A stretch of 64,000 nucleotides of DNA from Meghimatium bilineatum. Lineage: Eukaryota; Mollusca; Gastropoda; Stylommatophora; Philomycidae. The notes below the pieces were generated by a model. That model searched no databases and had not been told where the DNA came from. It saw nothing but the letters and a program-made list of their open reading frames with translations. Location of the stretch: positions 6,255,799-6,319,798 of the forward strand of contig CM067298.1 in NCBI GenBank assembly GCA_034231615.1, in the 5' to 3' direction. Shown here piece by piece: positions 6,401-29,200 of the stretch (its first letter is position 1; every line of letters starts with the position of its first letter). The translations under genes were made by a program, and so were the position numbers.

Positions 6401-9400
6401 GCCTGTGGTATTCCTGATAGATGCAAGGTCAGTGCTTCAAGCTCTCCAGTCTGGAAAACTAACAGACTTGAAAAAACTACTTAGTGAATTGTCTTACCTG
6501 TATAGGGTAACCATGCAGTGGATACCCTCTCACTGTGGAATACCAGGAAATGAAAAAGCAGACCAACTGGCTAAGGAAGGTGCTGCCGAAGACCAACCAG
6601 ATATACCAATCTCCTACCATCAGAAAAAACAGATGATCAAGTCAATAAGAAAGCCACAAACACCAACACAAGATGACTATTAGATTATGAACAGACCAGA
6701 ACAAGTTATAATTCTACATCTCAGAACAGGACACAACCGACTCCGCAGTCACATGTATACAAAGTTCAAGATTGGCAACACGGCCATGTGTACATGTGGA
6801 CAGGCAGCACAGAGTGCCAAACATATACTTCAAGAGTGTTCTGAGCATGAAATGCTGAGGCAGACATATTGGCCAGAGGAAACAACACTGGAATCAAAGC
6901 TCTATGGGACACTGTATGAGCTACAAAAGACAGTGAGTTTTATTAAGGAGACAGAATTACAGATATAGACATGTTTCAAGTGAACGAAAGAAGAAGAAGA
7001 ATAGCTTGCACAGCTTATGGGAAAGTGAGTTATTTCATTGTAGAAAAATGTTTCGCTGTCAAATATTTTGGTGACTGCTGTTCTTATTCAAGTGATATAT
7101 TCTTTCCAGAATGTAGTCTTCTCTATGGATGTTCTGTACTCTTAATGATTCTTGGAAGTTGACCTATCACAGGCAAGAGTATGCTGAAACTTTTACCCAT
7201 CATTGTCTTAGGTAGCCATTACTCCTGTTACCAGCAACCATACTATCAATTATTACTTATTCTCTACAGTTTTGCATCTTTTTATGGCCAAAAGACCTCA
7301 TCTCTTTTGTTATAATGTTTTTTTAGGAGCTACACTCCTCTTTGACATTTAATGTTCTTATCACCCTTTGAGTTGTCTATTTTGCTGTCCACTATTCTCA
7401 AAATTCTTGCACTGCATCTCTCTTCAAGGGCAGCAGTTTTTTTTCTCTGCCACTGAATTATTGTCTATATCTCACAGCCATAAATTGCTACTTGAAATGT
7501 GCTTGATCTATTCAGGCTGACTTGTTACTTAAGATAAACATTGTCTTATGTAGGTTGATACAAATTGTTTCAAACGCAATTTTATTATACCCAGGAGTAT
7601 ACTAACAACAGTAACTATGGTTACATATTCAAAAATATGCTTGTCTAGAATCCGGTTCATCCCCGAGACTCCTGTGGTATTTTGTATGGGCAAATACTAC
7701 AAAATAAATTTGGCTGGCATGTTATATAGATTGATTCACTGTTGTTATGAAAGTGAATGATGGTCAATAAACAAGCATGCAAGTAATACTCTAGAGGCCA
7801 CAGGTGAATTTCTGAGAATTCCATGAACAATTAAAAACACTACTGTGGGTGTGCTTAGAGAGGTTTGCAAATAAAGAAACCTTTTGCAAACATTTTTTCT
7901 TCTTCTGCGAATGCAGGATGGGTTGTGTTGTATCATGGTTTGCAGCTTTTCTGTGATATCTGCACCTTTTGACCTTACACATCCAACTGTAGAATGACTT
8001 CTAGGTCACTTTGACTATATATGATAAAGGGCAATCAACCTCACCATATAACCTCTTTAGTTGCATCCTATGACATGCATGGAAGGTGAATAGTGTTGCT
8101 ATTCTTTGCTCCTCTTTCACACCATGGATACACATGAAAAAACTCTAACCCCAAAATTTTTACTCACCTCATATGACCTTGTTGGTATTCTTGTTTCCCT
8201 TTTAGACTCAAGCAACACATGTATATATAAATCAAGGAGTCATCTTTTTAAACAAAAACAATGCCAAGTTTATATCTTAGGGAGTTTGTGTATGGTAAAA
8301 TACATTGTCATTATATACATTCTCAAACTCCTGCTGAATTTCTCTTGTAGCAGGACCATGGTCCTACTAGATTTCCAGCCGGATGTAGTCCAGAGAGTGG
8401 AAATGCATTGGGTCACCGTTTTATTTGCTCTAATGGCCCGATACATCAGTCTTCGGCAGAATATTTATGTTTAGAATCCCTGAGTTTGTGTACTTTTTTT
8501 CTGCTAACGATGTATGTTGACCGGCTTATAAACATGCTTAAAATATGTAGCGATAGAAACACAGAAAAAGAGAACACAGATTATAGTAAAATACTGGGAA
8601 CCATCCTAATATTTTATGGGACTAAATAGTCTCATAAATAGTGTACTAGGTGCCAGTACATGAAACTCAGTAGGAGGTGATAAGCAGTGTTAACAAAAAC
8701 ATGACAATTATTGGGCCCCTTTATTCAAGCACAGTTTAGGAATGTAGCTTGGAGGGAAGACAGCGTATTTTAGTATTTAGGGAAGGGGGGGGGAAATAAG
8801 ATTGGTGTTAGAATTTTAGTTTTTGGGGGAGGATGTTAAGGATTGTTGTCAGATTTTTTTTGTGGGGGGGGGGGTGTTTTGTTAGTTGTTATCGAATTTT
8901 AGTTTTTTTGGGGGGGGGGGTGGAATGGATGTTTATTTGGGGTGGGGGAATGTTAAGATTTTTCTATCAGATTTCTATCAGATATCATTTTTCTGTTCGA
9001 TTTTTAGGTTGGGGAGAGGATGTTAGTTGTTTAAGACTTGGGATTTGAATATAATTCATTCTTATAATATCAGGAGTCCACAGTACAATCTGAGTTTAGA
9101 CTTTGGACACTGTCTGGTCAAATCACCTCCTAGGTTTATTAACGGATGGGCTTCTATTTGGAAATATACGGTATAAACCAGTAATTTTTTTTTTTTAAGT
9201 GTATGCCAAGTTTATCTATTAGAAAGTTTGTGTACTGTAGAATATGCCTTTACTCATTGCTCTTGTTAAATTGATTAAATTCATGTATAGTTATAACTTT
9301 TATGTTTGTTTGCCTAGAAAAACGTTGGAGGAACCCAAACCGAAGACATGGACAAGCTTTTACAGATACCAAGAGTTTTCAATTTCTACAACTACCTGCG

Positions 9401-12400
9401 CACACATCCTCTCATCACTCGCCTACGACTTTCATCATCTTCACTCCAGAGACGGACTAATCTCATTACTGGTTTTACTCAAACTGACACTTTAGTTTCT
9501 GATAATGCCACCACTCTGGACCAAATTACGCCATCAGAACGACAGCTATTCTTTGCAGCTGCACATGCACATTTCCAGAATGGCTGCCCTCTTGTAGCCA
9601 TAGAAGTAATGAGGAAACTACCCAAGTGTCCTGTCTTGGTGGAAGAAGACCTTCAAAAGATGAAGTATTTTTCCAGCCGGAGAAGAAAATCTTTGTTTGA
9701 GATTAACAGTACAACTGGCACATTACAAGATTTGAACATTATGACTATAGACCAGGATTGGGATGAAAATGAAAAGTTGTCTCCACAATTTAATAACACC
9801 CAGAACAGCAAAACTGAGGTCATTGATTGGAGCAAGCCTGTATTATCTGTTACTAATCATAATTCTGGGTCAGTAGACTGGGGAACTCCCAGCCGTGTGC
9901 ACTTTGAAGATGATCTTGATCTAGAACTGGATCTGGGCTTGGGAGGAAGTGATGAAGATGAGAATGAGGAAGAGGAATTGAATGAAAGTTCCAACAAAAA
10001 GTTAGAGAACAATAAAAATGTGACCAAATCTGATAGTGTCAAGTTTAAAACTGGTAGTAATGATGATGATAGTGATGATGATGATGATGGTGGCACAGAA
10101 GGGAAGAAGAAGGAAATCAAGCCAGAAACACCAACCCATATAGATATTATGTCACAGCAATACAAGTTTATAGCATGTTTGAAAGTAAGTACTTCTATCT
10201 TGATTTGCAAAATTTTAGTTTAATCTAGATTTTTCAATTCAGTTGTAACGGTTTATAACAAATTTTAAAATAATTTCAAATACTGCATGTTTCCCATTAG
10301 GGAGCTGAAAGGGGGGGGGGTTGATAAGTGACTGTGTATGAATGATAAAATGGCTCAAAATGTATAGAGGATTGACTCATGATTCCTCATTTGGGCTTCA
10401 TGATGTTCAGTAGCATATTAGAAGGATCTTATTCGCGTATATTCTTCAAAAAGGCCCAACATATTATTTCTTCTTTAGCGTTCATTCTCAAACTCCCGCT
10501 GGATCTCCTTTACAGCAGGACCATGATCCTACTAGATTTCCAGCAGGATGTAGTCCAGAGAATGGAAATGCGTTGTGTCTCCATTTTATTTGCGCCAATG
10601 GCCCGATACTTCCGTCTTTGGTGGGAAAATATTATTTTACAGAGCACCACTTTGGCTGTTGAAATTATCGATCAGAGCATGTGTTTATCCTTTGGGTCAT
10701 TGAAAAAAATGCACTTGCTAATAAAATGTTACAATATTGAACTCATAACCTTGCGAACATAAAGAATATGGCTTTCTCACTATACCATAGAGATCCCATG
10801 TATGAAAGTAGTTTACTGTGTAGAATCCAAACCTGCAGAGGGGCTAACGTTATCAGCTAGGTCCAGCTGTCTGGTAACTTTGGGAAAAGTTGTGAAGCCA
10901 GATCTGAAACCTGAAGGGTCACGAACACTGTCAACAAAAACAGCATTGTCTTTGACATGTCAGACAAGCTTGACAGTCATTAAGAGCTAGTATCTCTCAC
11001 ATCTGTCATTGACTAATGGAGCAAGATCTACGCCTGTAAATTCCAAGAACTCATCAGAATCAGAATGAATACAAATTTCACTAAAAATGGCTACCATTTC
11101 AATGGATTTCTTTCAATTGGAACAGATCAGTTTAAATATTAGATCTAAAACTCTGATATACTACCTCCTTCAAAACGAAATGTCGGAGAAGAAAGATAAA
11201 TAAGATTACAGATAGGTGGTGCCATAACTAGTGAAGTAAGCCTAAATATATTGTAGTTCCTCATCAATAAATGAATGCATAACAATGGCTGGTGGCTATC
11301 TCCGACAACTGTTTACAGAGAGACAGTCGTCATTGGTGGCCACCTCTGATAGCATCCTACAGGTTAAACATACTATCATTAGAGGAACTTGGTAAACATA
11401 TTATCAGTGGAGGCTCTTGTTTAAACATCAGTAGAGACTTCTGTGAGATATATCAATAGAGGCTCATGTTAAATATATTGTCAGTGGAGATTCTTGTGTG
11501 AAACATCAATAGAGCCACATGTGAGACATTAACAGAGGCTCATGTTAAATATATTATCAGCAGAGGCTTATTCGATGCTCATGTTAAACATACTATGCAA
11601 GAATGATAAATGTTCCAATGTTCAGATATCAAGATGTCCAAAGCCTAAATGTAAAACTATTAATATAACATGTTCAATTGATGTAATTTGTTTGATGGCA
11701 GGTGTTGATGGAAGAGCTAGGTAATCTGGCTACAGGGTTTGAGGTTGATGGTGGTCAGTTGAGACATCAACTTTATATCTGGTTAGAAAAGGAGTTTGAT
11801 GTACTGAAAGTGCTGTGCAACTATGGGAAGCCTACAGAAGCCTACCCACCTGCACAGGAAGGTAAACAGAATTCTTTGAATGGATAAAAGTGTTTTAAAA
11901 GATCTTGACCAGTTGTAGAGACTTAAATTTGCTTAAAGTGTGTGCCACATCTGCATTTAATGTTGACTGTATAGGTCTGATAGAGTCTGTTCTTCTGATT
12001 CTTGTTTCTCTGATGACGGTCTATCAATGCAGACTCTAGATCATTGTTACTTGTGGTATCTTGAAGGGCAGCAAGAAACTGGCCATCCCTTGCCAGTTGT
12101 TTATTGTTGTTCATATATCACAAGTGATGATGACCATTTGTTACATCCACTTTTGAAATTCACTTCTTTGGTAATGAGTTCATAGATGGCTTATAATAAT
12201 AGCCCTATTCTGGCCTGAAATGTCCTTGGACATTTTGGGCGTGGATGACCACTGTAGATTGGTATACCTGTGACTTTCTAGCTACTCCCCACTGCTGAGC
12301 TATTGCACTTCTCTTTTCATAAGATACTGCACCTATTTTGACTGTAGATCACCATGTAGCTCTATTTTGTGCAAGTGCTTCCCATTTATCTTGGTTTATT

Positions 12401-23200: not shown

Positions 23201-26200
23201 TATCATCCATCTTTGCTTTCACCATGACATGATCAGTCTTACCACAGAAGTAGAAGCTGTTAACGAAGGCTATTGCTGGTTCATACGACTACTTTTGTGC
23301 ATGTGTGCTCAGTGACCACATGAGTGCACTCCGTTCAGTTGAAGCAGAAACTATCTTCTGACATGTGCAGTTTTTAGAGCATTAGATAGTGCCTCACAAA
23401 AAGAAATGCTATACAGACACGATGGATACAGGGGCAGACCATGGAAAAGATGGGTTACAGAAATAACAGTCATTGAAAATTAACATATATGAAGCACACA
23501 AAAAGACCTTCCCCAGAGAACTCTTCAGCCCTTGATGCTGAAAAGCATCAAGGGTTAAAACAGAAAGAAAGAAAGAAGAAGAAAAGTTAGAACATTTTAA
23601 GACCAATCAACCTTCATTGTTGTGCCAGGATATGTGGGTGTGAAGAGTGATTATCGAGTTGACACGCTGGGGAGCATAGCCACTTTTTCAGAATGCACAT
23701 CAGCATCATCAAACTGTGGTGCCATACTAGTTGCACTGAGAGAATCTGTCCGTTCAGTAGTATAAATAGCAGTCAATTTTTAAACTGTGTAATATCAAAG
23801 ATTTGAAAATACATCTCTCAAAAATTACTTGCCAGTTTTTACTTTCAGACATTGACTGTTTATCTCCGATGGGCTTTCATACCCTGACATAATAAATTTA
23901 GAAGTAACTGTAAAAATGGAGATTTAGCAGATTACTGGCAGAAGAGGTCTGCTTAACTGGCTGTTTTATTGTCTTTATCAGAGATAATGAATTAAACTTG
24001 GAGGGGCATATAAATGAAACTAGTATCAGAAATCTGAAGAGAAAGATTAGAAACAGAAACAGATAGAGACAAGGTTGTATTTGTAGTGATAAATCTTCAC
24101 GAGTTGCACTTCTGTCTAGTAAGATGATGGTTTGTTCAGTTCCAAGTAAGCTGTAAGTAGATGGTTTATTTCCAATACACAAGGCAACACACAAAAATCA
24201 TCACAGATAATTTTATATGGGTTTTGTAGTATTTGGTTAGCTGATTTCAAATCTGTCTTTAGTTTTTTTCTACCACGTAACATTTTTTTGTAATAGCTAA
24301 TTATAATATCTTTCAACAGTGGTTATGACCACAAATCGAGTACAATGTTTTATTTAGATTGGTATCGATACTTTATTACTGGCTGTTACAATTTTGTTCA
24401 GTTTCGGGTCACGTGATTTAGTATCGATGCTACCATTTTTGTGTATTCGATAGGATAGTAAATCCATTTATACACGTGTGGTGTTTGCTTAAAGTAATTA
24501 CGACAAGTATATTATGAGATTTCGTTGTTTTGTACTTTCTTTTATTTTAAAGGTTGCAAAAACCTTGCATTTGTGTACTTGATAACTTATTTTGTGTACT
24601 TATTAACTTATTATCATGCCTAGAAGATGCATCAATCATCCAAACTGTTTCTGTTTTGTGTGTGGTTCATTTGTGACGAAATCACAGCGGCGCACAATTT
24701 CAGATGATCTAAAGAAGATATACATATTGTATTTTGGCTGTCCACTGGGTGATCAGGATAAATCTTGGGCTCCACATATCATATGTACCAGTTGTTCAAG
24801 CGGACTACGTGACTGGCTAAATGGCCGCAAGGCAGCTATGCCATTTGCAATTCCAATGTTATGGAGGGAACCGCGAGACCATGTCAATGATTGCTACTTT
24901 TGTCTGGTGAACACAAATGGATTCTCTGCTAAAAATAAACAGAACATTGTATATCCTAGCTTAGATTCTGCCATCAGGCCTGTTCCACATGACGATTCAT
25001 TGCCTATTCCTTTACCTCCTTCTGGTGGACTCGTATCTATGCAAGATGGGGAGGAATGCAGTGAAAACACAGCTGTTCACAATGCAGACTCAACTGATCC
25101 AGATTATACTGTAGATGAATGTTTAGAACCTAAGACTTTTACACAGGCAGAGCTGAATGATCTTATTCGTGATCTAAATCTGTCTAAAGATAAAGCAGAA
25201 CTTCTTGCTTCAAGGCTTAAGCAAAAGCATTTGCTTGCAAGGGACGTTAACATAACTTATTATAGAAAACGAAATCTCAACATGACGACGTTCTTCAATG
25301 TTGACGGCTCATTGAGTTATTGTCAGGACATCGATGGTCTCTTCAACAGTTTATCACAAGTGCATGATCCATCAGAATGGCGTCTCTTCATTGATTCCTC
25401 GCGAAGAAGCTTAAAGGCAGTTCTTTTGCACAATGGAAATTTAAAACCAAGCATACCAGTTGCACATTCTGTTTATCTGAAAGAATCTTATTACAACATG
25501 AACAGTTTGCTTGAAGTTATCCATTATAAAACACACCAGTGGAACATCTGTGGTGATCTAAAGGTCATTGGCATGTTGATGGGCATGCAAGGAGGATTCA
25601 CTAAATACTGCTGTTTCCTATGCCTATGGGATAGTCGAGCAACAGCGGAACATTATGTCAAACGTGTCTGGGAGCCCAGGCATATCTATACGCCAGGAGC
25701 AAGCAGTGTCCAAAATATGCCCCTTGTTGATCCACAGAAAATATTTCTGCCACCTCTCCATATTAAGCTAGGACTGATGAAAACCCTTGTGAAGACCATG
25801 GGTAAGACAAACTCAGAAGGTTTTCAGTACCTTGTTAATAAATTCCCAAACATCACTGCTGCAAAAATGAAGGAAGGGATATTTATAGGTCCACAAATCA
25901 GATCTGTTTTACAAGATGAAGGTTTCAAACAGTCTCTGTCAGGAGCTGAGCTAGAAGCCTGGGAGGCATTCAAGTGGGTCTGTGAAAACTTTCTTGGTAA
26001 TCATAAGTCCCCTACATACAGGGAAGGAGTTCAGCGTCTAATAGATTCTTACCAGAACCTTGGCTGTCGCATGTCATTAAAAGTGCACTTCTTGCACTCC
26101 CATGTAGATTTCTTCCCAGAAAATCTTGGTATGGTGAGTGAAGAGCAAGGAGAACGTTTTCACCAGGACATTCAGTTAATGGAGCGCCGTTATCAAGGTT

Positions 26201-29200
26201 TGTGGAATGAGAGTATGATGGCCGACTTCTGCTGGATGCTATTCCGTGATAATCCAGGCGAAGAATACAACAGAAAATCAAATTCCAAGCATTTTTGAAG
26301 AAACATTCTACATATCTATGCTGTGATGTGAGTATATTTGATTTAGTCTAGAAGATGTGAATCATTTGCTTAATTGATGTTTGCGATTCTCGAAAAAATA
26401 CAGCCAAGTTCAGTGAAAACTAACATCACTCATAACTTTAAAACTTGACGTGATAGAAAAAAACTGATACCAGATCTGAAATCAGCGCCAAAAAATCCTT
26501 TAGAAAAGTGTATTTTGGTTTCAGATGATTAAAAAAAGTTTTATTTTGTTGCCTTGTGATGATGTTTTATTAAGTTCCAAGTAAACTAAAAGAGATGGTT
26601 TTTTGTGTGTAATAAGATGATGGTTCGTTAAGTTCCAAGTAAGTTGTAAATAGATGGTTTCGTTCTAATAAGATGATTTTTTGTTAATTTCCAAGCCTGG
26701 TGTTCTTGCAGCTCCTAACATGACTCGGAAGTGGAAGTTGAGTCGATACTTGCTCGCCTCATCTGTGGAACATGGACATCATTAACATTAAATATATCTC
26801 AAAAGTATTTTTAGGGGGGGGGGAAGAGCGAGGGGGAAAAATGACCTTAGAACATTTTGATCAGATGCTCTTTGTAGTCATATATGCTTTCATTATCTTT
26901 TTTTCTATCTTTATTTTTTTCTCTCTCATTTGCTCTCTTTCTCTCCCACCATTCTCTCTCCCCCTTTCCCTCCCCTCCCTTTCCCTCATTATTTCTTTTC
27001 ATTCTCCCACTTCGCTCCCTTTTTCTCATTTGCCGCCCCCCCCCAAGTAAAAATGCTTTTGAGATATATATAATGTTGGTGCTGTCCATGCTCCACAGAT
27101 GAGGTGAGTAAGCATCGACTCAACTTCAACTTCCGAGTCATGTTAGGAGCTGCAGGAACACCAGGTGGTCCTCCATATTCTCCTATAGAAGTGAAAGAGA
27201 GTTATAGAGAGAAGTTTATCCCACCAGAAATCAGTATGGTCAACTACCTGATGACAAAAGTGAGTATTATATTTGTTTGTGCAGTTTTCATTCATCTAAA
27301 TGTCTTTCTGTCTACTTCTGCATTCTCAAACTCCTGTAGATTAGCAGCATGTAGTCCAGGAATTGGAATACATTGTTTTATGGCTTACATCTTGGCTGCA
27401 TTGTCTGTACCTATCAGCTTGACACATCTGACTTTAGCATGGCTTCTGTGTGACATTGACCATCTATGGAATGGTGCAGGCAATCTCATGTTAAAAACCC
27501 AAGTCACTGTTTATAATATATGTGGCTGGTTGTGTAGCCAGAATTTATTTTGCTCTGCTGATCTGCGCCAGCAAACATATGCATAGTCTTTCTGTCAAAA
27601 GTTATGATGTTTCAAGGTTGTGCCGTGCTGTTTGTACTAATCAATCTAAAATGATCTGTCTAACTTGATGAATATATAAGATTGTGTCTTACTGTTCAAA
27701 TTGATCTATCTAAATATATTTCTATTGAAAGATATGCAGATTCTTCTTCTACGCTCATATTCAAACTCCAGACTGGATCTCTCTTGTAGCAGGACAGTGA
27801 TACTATTAGATTTCCAGTAGGAAGTAGTCCAGGGGCTGAAAATGCATTGTGTGGCCGTTTTATTTACACCCATGGCCTGACACATCCGTTTTCAGTGTAA
27901 TATGTAGATTTTTAAAGATGATTTGATTCATCCAGAAAATAATTATTACAAGTGATTATTATAAGTAATATAAATTCCAGATGATATAGTAATGTTTTAC
28001 AAATAAGACACAATCACACCCAAAAAATAAATAATTGTCTTGTGAAATGTCATGGACATTTTAATGTTCATTTACTGTTGGTGGGATAGAATACCAGATA
28101 GTGAGGTTCTGATAAAAGCCAAATCTGTAAGTGGGGTATACACACAACACAATACTGATATGGGCACATTCATGCTGAGCATGTCATTTAGTCCATGTGA
28201 AAAAATTACTGTATTGAGTATATCAAAAGACAGCAAGTAACGTGGTTTGGTCACCTTATGAGAATGAACCCAAACCAAATACCAATACGAGCATATAACA
28301 AAATAATATCTGGATATGGAGATAGATATAGACTAAGGAAATGGATAGAGAACATCACCATCACCTTGAACAAACATGGACTCAACGCATCCTAGGCAAC
28401 ACATCTGGCCTTGGAACAAAACTCATGCTTTCACCCTTAATGGCAGGTGTGACATCATTGACTCATGTAGACAAATTCTCCTGTTGGCAATATTGAAACT
28501 GGGACTACATCATCTATAATACTTTCAGCTTGTGCCATCCATGACATACCGTGCTTAATTCTTACAGAATGGCATTCAATTCAATCAAATCATGGCAGGC
28601 TTTCAGAAAGTAATTATCACTTTTAGAAGGGAATATAGGAAATTACACACCTTGTAAGATCAAAGTGAATGATATAATATTAAAACAGGTCCACCAAATT
28701 CAAATATCTAGGTACAACGATTACAGCAGATGGAAGAAATTCAACAGAAATAAGATGCAGAATAGGACAAACAAAAACAACATTCAGATAAATGAAAAAT
28801 ATATTGTGTAATATGACCTTGTCATTATAGTTGAGAAAGAGAGTTCTGCAGATCTATATAACCCCTATACTAACATATGGGTGCGAGTCTTAGACAATAA
28901 ACAAACTGAAAAGTGGGAAATTAGAGGCAGCAGAGATGTGGTTCTACAGAAGAATGCTGAGAATACCATGGACTGCCAGAAAAACTAATGTAGAGGTGTT
29001 GAAAGAATCAAATGCGAAACGAACCTTAATCAACAATATAAGAAAAAGGCAATCTTCTTTATGTGGCCACTTCACGAGACAGGCAGGTTTGGAGAACATA
29101 ATCACAATAGGCAAGATTGAAGGCACCAGAGACAGAGGGCGACAACATGAGAAAATATTAGACAGTTTGACAACCTGTCAATGCAAGGAAACAACGTCCT

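Follow-up and report, generated by a model that had tools for sequence, protein, structure and literature searches.

We analysed a window of 64,000 nucleotides from the gastropod Meghimatium bilineatum (assembly GCA_034231615.1, contig CM067298.1, positions 6,255,799 to 6,319,798), and found that it contains a complete DNA transposon with a single open reading frame, very probably an autonomous cut-and-paste element of the Chapaev-type CMC (CMCT) group. We placed the element in Chapaev/CMC because it combines a predicted transposase of the RAG1/Transib fold with C(2)C, LH and H(4)H motifs, termini of the form CAC..GTG and residual 3-bp target-site duplications of the form A[NNN]T. The initial annotation had regarded the element as a member of an unassigned family that could define a superfamily. 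Given the same fold, motifs, ends and duplications, the kind of element is already known and this claim does not stand.

The ends of the element, which read CACAAGGCAAC...GTTGCCTTGTG, were defined by comparing its copies in the host genome (1.61 Gb, 32 contigs). The best 40 of 475 candidates in the DNA search were all 100% identical after rounding (the 41st row was a 32-bp piece), and the best 78 of 5061 candidates in the protein search were all at 99-100%; the copy numbers from both searches are lower bounds. Our set for examining the ends comprised 82 different copies: the first 40, eight from protein-search loci and two batches of 20 and 14, the last of which also served to re-read six of the preceding 20 whose ends had previously not been located. 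The sequence CACAAGG...CCTTGTG was found exactly at the positions equivalent to 24178 and 26558 in 34 of the first 40 copies, with flanks that differ by eye. The coordinates and inverted ends initially proposed for an intact transposon were exact. With a looser criterion (outer five bases CACAA and TTGTG), both ends were intact in 66 of the 82 copies (52 + 14). The remaining 16 have altered or absent terminal bases and were excluded from the target-site counts.

The open frame spans 24607-26298, and the ATG at 24616 gives a protein of 560 amino acids. This frame, announced as uninterrupted, is retained in full in 34 of the 40 aligned copies, and 67 of the 78 copies scored in the protein search have no in-frame stop. 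The open-reading-frame list shows no second frame of at least 150 amino acids inside the element, which thus has no RAG2-like gene of that size. We found 2177 relatives of the transposase at E<=1e-3. They are not confined to the invertebrates mentioned initially, since one sequence comes from a record for the frog Eleutherodactylus coqui.

Conservation was scored in two alignments, one of 61 sequences (the window protein and 60 others) and one of 120. D260, D314, C336, H491, H496, E510 and E513 are invariant in the former, where C333 is conserved at >=90%; D260, D314 and C336 are invariant in the latter, with C333, H491, H496, E510 and E513 at >=90%. These data support the candidate triad and the CxxC insert proposed from the sequence. 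Structure prediction, which had been suggested as a check, gave an RNase H-like core (beta-beta-beta-alpha-beta-alpha over residues 255-321, followed by a helical insertion and a further helix that starts at 512). Thus, neither of the two outcomes named initially as refuting the proposal, a missing RNase H-like core or copies with ends elsewhere, was observed. In this model the conserved residues would form a DDE catalytic triad whose Glu is E510 or E513: two computed alignments place E510, not E513, opposite what we take to be the catalytic Glu of RAG1, whereas the predicted helix starts at 512.

According to PMC4079192, Chapaev elements are marked by target-site duplications of 3 to 4 bp, by termini of the form CAC..GTG and by C(2)C, LH and H(4)H motifs. 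The window element carries C333xxC336, L381H382 and H491xxxxH496 at >=90% conservation and 5'-CAC...GTG-3' within its inverted repeats, with a 3-bp duplication in 18 of 66 copies (5.7 expected), a 4-bp one in 1/66 and neither in most. By their description in that paper, Chapaev3 elements (Merrow, Garfield, Conan) resemble it in size (Garfield_BM has 2289 bp and 556 amino acids), motifs, ends and A/T-framed 3-bp duplication. They differ in that their duplications are TWA, always between A and T. In our data 14 of the 18 3-bp duplications are so framed, but only two are TWA, and at 48 of the 66 junctions there is no 3-bp duplication; because TWA is so rare here, the element was not filed as Chapaev3. 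The CMCT group outlined in PMC12730594 (EnSpm/CACTA, Mirage, Chapaev, Transib, Plavaka, ESTA, Lanisha) shares with it 5'-CA..TG-3' ends, short duplications and, between the second D and E, C(2)C and H(3-4)H, although duplications of 2-5 bp are the rule there and junctions are mostly ragged here.

Target-site statistics were computed on the 66 sites with intact ends, with expectations from all cross-pairings. Flanks were identical over 3 bp at 18 sites, against 5.74 expected (p 9e-6). Identity over 2 bp was also raised (20/66 vs 11.2, p 0.005), and lengths of 4 to 8 were not enriched at these 66 sites (4 bp at one site vs 2.2 expected, 5 bp at none). A preceding A and a following T framed 14 of the 18 3-bp copies vs 13 of the 48 remaining sites, and the full A[NNN]T duplication occurred 14 times vs 2.05 expected (p 1.3e-8). 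This frame was noticed in the first 52 sites and then tested on a hold-out of 14, where four A[NNN]T duplications were found vs 0.86 expected (p 0.0086). Over all sites, A was present at -4 in 39/66 (background 0.33) and T at +4 in 47/66 (background 0.32). The duplicated words were TTT (five), AAT (three), ATT (two) and eight singles. Two copies excluded from the counts for their changed right end (L133_L134 and L145_L146) carry TTA duplications with the same A before and T after.

Several results weigh against the Chapaev/CMC placement, starting with the absence of a 3-bp duplication at 48 of the 66 junctions. The empty site could be read by eye where the element was inserted in a tandem array: no base was duplicated and none lost in copy L038, AA was duplicated in L034, and the junction of L033 was ambiguous. 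In the window copy AATA abuts ATGATG, in place of the AATAAGATGA of two neighbouring units and the AGTAAGATGATG of a third, which points to a probable loss of bases, though the units have diverged. Models of one-sided trimming were weakly favoured. With two retained bases they matched 6/52 sites on one side (2.9 expected, p 0.07) and 6/52 on the other (2.0 expected, p 0.014), with one or zero retained bases there was no enrichment at the 52 sites, and all together they matched 31/52 (23.4 expected, p 0.02). Trimming is therefore suggested rather than demonstrated. Copies L143-L144, L016, L028 and L037 have a left end in which the terminal CAC is missing or replaced and the adjoining AAGGC is intact; end trimming may also hit the element itself. 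Other types of duplication were rejected. Long variable duplications, as reported for IS481EU (PMC10045372), were sought at lengths of 4 to ~190 bp and gave any match in only 4/40 copies (single matches of 4 and 6 bp, the other two being tandem arrays). We also discarded duplications shifted by carried-along bases, as an offset of 0/0 fitted best (p 0.001, with p 0.011 for the runner-up), and a reverse-complement relation between the two flanks, for which many tests gave no p below 0.047.

End pairing, nicking and hairpin excision are established for RAG1, Transib and hAT enzymes. By analogy, one protein would perform all steps of transposition: its N-terminal zinc domain probably serves in subunit pairing or DNA binding, the transposase would pair both ends, and the RNase H core would then nick at the CAC/GTG boundary. 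The freed 3' hydroxyl would most likely drive excision with hairpins on the flanks, as in RAG1 and Transib, and the ends would be inserted at A[NNN]T sites cut with a 3-bp stagger. Repair would then be complete (18/66) or accompanied by the loss of bases. On a more speculative reading, the host would usually seal the junctions by trimming and end joining, not gap filling, as in V(D)J joints, leaving most insertions with an incomplete duplication or none. If the ragged junctions are real, an RNase H transposase with mostly duplication-free insertions would need explaining, and the behaviour of the junctions is worth testing. We propose only tentatively the full combination of a compact active RAG1-type transposase, a 3-bp stagger at A[NNN]T, repair by trimming and end joining, and an N-terminus linking RAG1 (Chapa) and ZAD.

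It is also conceivable, if somewhat doubtful, that the element always makes a 3-bp duplication, which disappears when near-identical copies exchange flanks through ectopic recombination, or when the assembly is wrong. The many copies diverged by ~0.2% are good substrates for both, and such events may account for sites outside tandem arrays. Yet, both flanks come from one array in L038, L034, L033 and the window copy, and still these lack a clean 3-bp duplication. The A/T framing is also kept, though exchange would keep it too.

The 48 junctions without a 3-bp duplication, the clean insertion of L038 and the lack of any match in curated transposase families (Pfam, and NCBIfam with four proteins), a further point against the placement, would suit a separate superfamily, not part of Chapaev/CMC, whose integration leaves no target-site duplication. 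We regard this as improbable and rejected it, because 3-bp A[NNN]T duplications are significantly over-represented, as confirmed in the hold-out; the Chapaev motifs and CAC..GTG termini also speak against it. Spy elements are not known to make target-site duplications; they were set aside since RAG1 ranked first in the fold search, which is not a formal exclusion, and absence of a family from the structural match lists was not counted as one. That the element is itself a Transib or a RAG-like (ProtoRAG-type) transposon is very unlikely, since Transib duplications have 5 bp (PMC4411706) and we observed none of that length, which is why the element was not filed as Transib, and since it lacks a second large open reading frame and has no more than 10-15% identity in structural alignments. 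RAG1 is also longer (1043 vs 560 amino acids), and no RING was found in the window transposase.

The Chapaev/CMC reading draws on a likeness to RAG1 that is weaker and more mixed in sequence than in fold. The predicted model has the catalytic fold that marks the Transib/RAG group, with RAG1 ranked first in the fold search at the low identity given above. When conserved blocks were placed along the whole of RAG1, the best position of the D314-C336 block coincided with the CxxC and the second catalytic Asp (shuffle P 0.004), while the LH and E blocks came to lie on ALHCDIG (P 0.12) and WASEGNESG (P 0.16), respectively. We assume this Asp to be residue 711 in P0121 and 708 in mouse numbering, and take the catalytic and zinc-binding residues of RAG1 as generally given. 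To the unfavourable side belong the D260 and H491..H496 blocks, with no matching place in RAG1 (P 0.59 and 0.84), the joined block 484-526, with its best place elsewhere (P 0.10), the non-significant HHalign comparison of the core with RAG1 (E 0.32-0.37), and the family profile, which retrieved no RAG1 or Transib chain from the PDB. Searches of PDB sequences with the single protein or the N-terminus gave no useful match. Among the 61 members scanned with Pfam, six match an RNase H family (best E 0.031) and one the RAG1 importin-binding family (E 0.32). PF12940 had no match in the host genome, but the controls were silent as well, making this search uninformative.

The proposed zinc-binding N-terminus is supported by conserved Cys and His residues. 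This putative domain weakly resembles both ZAD and the N-terminus of RAG1. HHalign of the family with the latter gave single-comparison E values of 0.006-0.08, not database-significant and in two competing registers, and Foldseek gave E 1.3-1.7 for ZAD. Pfam zf-AD did not reach its cut-off in the window protein (12.1 bits vs 28, E 0.24). At E<=1 it matched 17 of the 61 members; the best value, E 0.0017, is near noise because single members match unrelated families down to E 0.0082. ZAD, presumably the domain of the largest insect transcription-factor family, is attached to C2H2 fingers in insect zinc-finger proteins, whereas here the domain is attached to a transposase and has the additional conserved H89, C93xxC96 and H125. 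Chapaev3 proteins have an N-terminal Chapa zinc domain, also present in RAG1. If the N-terminus does link RAG1 (Chapa) with ZAD, this would hint at a common transposon origin; its relation to both is worth testing, as it bears on how a large insect transcription-factor domain arose. The accessible portions of the open-licence literature gave no link between ZAD and a transposase.

The copies are young. Variants among the 40 aligned copies comprise 158 singletons vs 11 shared, with 1 to 8 substitutions per copy relative to the majority, a star-like pattern that fits one recent burst. Because copies were picked for their resemblance to the window copy, their divergence tends to be underestimated and their intactness overestimated. 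Codon changes between these copies (27 synonymous, 69 non-synonymous, 6 stops) show no sign of purifying selection after insertion, as expected of young copies. With mostly intact frames, these data bear out the recent activity initially suggested, and the element is probably still active. As a very young RAG1 relative that has one open reading frame, seems intact, has well-defined ends and is present in many copies, it is a convenient system to study how RAG-type enzymes integrate.

Relatives outside eukaryotes were sought with little return: 34 pattern matches in viral contigs and 43 in prokaryote contigs, none confirmed, none found in phages, and no useful match in PHROGs. A motif-string search of the open-licence literature also gave no useful match.

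Table 1. Features of the transposon and its immediate flanks (positions in the window).
Feature	Position	Strand	Remarks
Complete element	24178..26558	+	2381 bp, 5'-CACAAGG...CCTTGTG-3'; both ends kept in 66/82 genome copies
Left terminal inverted repeat	24178..24197	+	20 nt, 85% complementary to right repeat
Right terminal inverted repeat	26539..26558	-	Partner of 24178..24197
Left subterminal inverted repeat	24240..24286	+	47 nt, 81% with right subterminal partner
Right subterminal inverted repeat	26440..26486	-	Partner of 24240..24286
Transposase open reading frame	24616..26298	+	560 amino acids and stop; coding 24616-26295; no other frame of >=150 amino acids in the element
N-terminal zinc domain (putative), residues 1-140	24616..25035	+	C13xxC16, C57xxC60, H89, C93xxC96, H125
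D260, putative first catalytic Asp	25393..25395	+	Invariant; within predicted strand 255-261
D314, putative second catalytic Asp	25555..25557	+	Invariant; aligns to RAG1 P0121 residue 711
C(2)C motif, C333-C336	25612..25623	+	19 residues past D314
LH motif, L381-H382 (LPPLHIKLG)	25756..25761	+	>=90% in both alignments; aligns to RAG1 ALHCDIG
H(4)H motif, H491-H496	26086..26103	+	Invariant in 61 sequences, >=90% in 120
E510/E513, catalytic Glu candidates	26143..26154	+	Both invariant in 61-sequence alignment
Left flank, diverged tandem repeat of ~57 bp interrupted by the element	24110..24177	+	
Right flank, same ~57-bp tandem repeat as 24110..24177	26559..26695	+	No duplication at window copy

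The tandem repeat hosting the transposon is directly adjoined by a foldback (inverted-repeat) element at 26696-27165, with arms of 146 nt (26696-26841 and 27020-27165) that are 85% complementary. Elsewhere in the window, Pfam identified on the forward strand an endonuclease piece (PF14529, 3690-4208, E 7.5e-12) and a reverse transcriptase piece (PF00078, 5109-5999, E 2.7e-18), probably parts of a non-long-terminal-repeat retrotransposon. An RNase H domain fragment (PF00075, 49229-49690, forward strand, E 2.9e-5, slightly below the cut-off) is probably also retrotransposon-derived. Finally, an open frame of 301 amino acids at 9318-10223 (forward strand), whose sole Pfam match is a sub-cut-off PTE, resembles by eye what we take to be an exon of a DmX-like (rabconnectin-3) gene.
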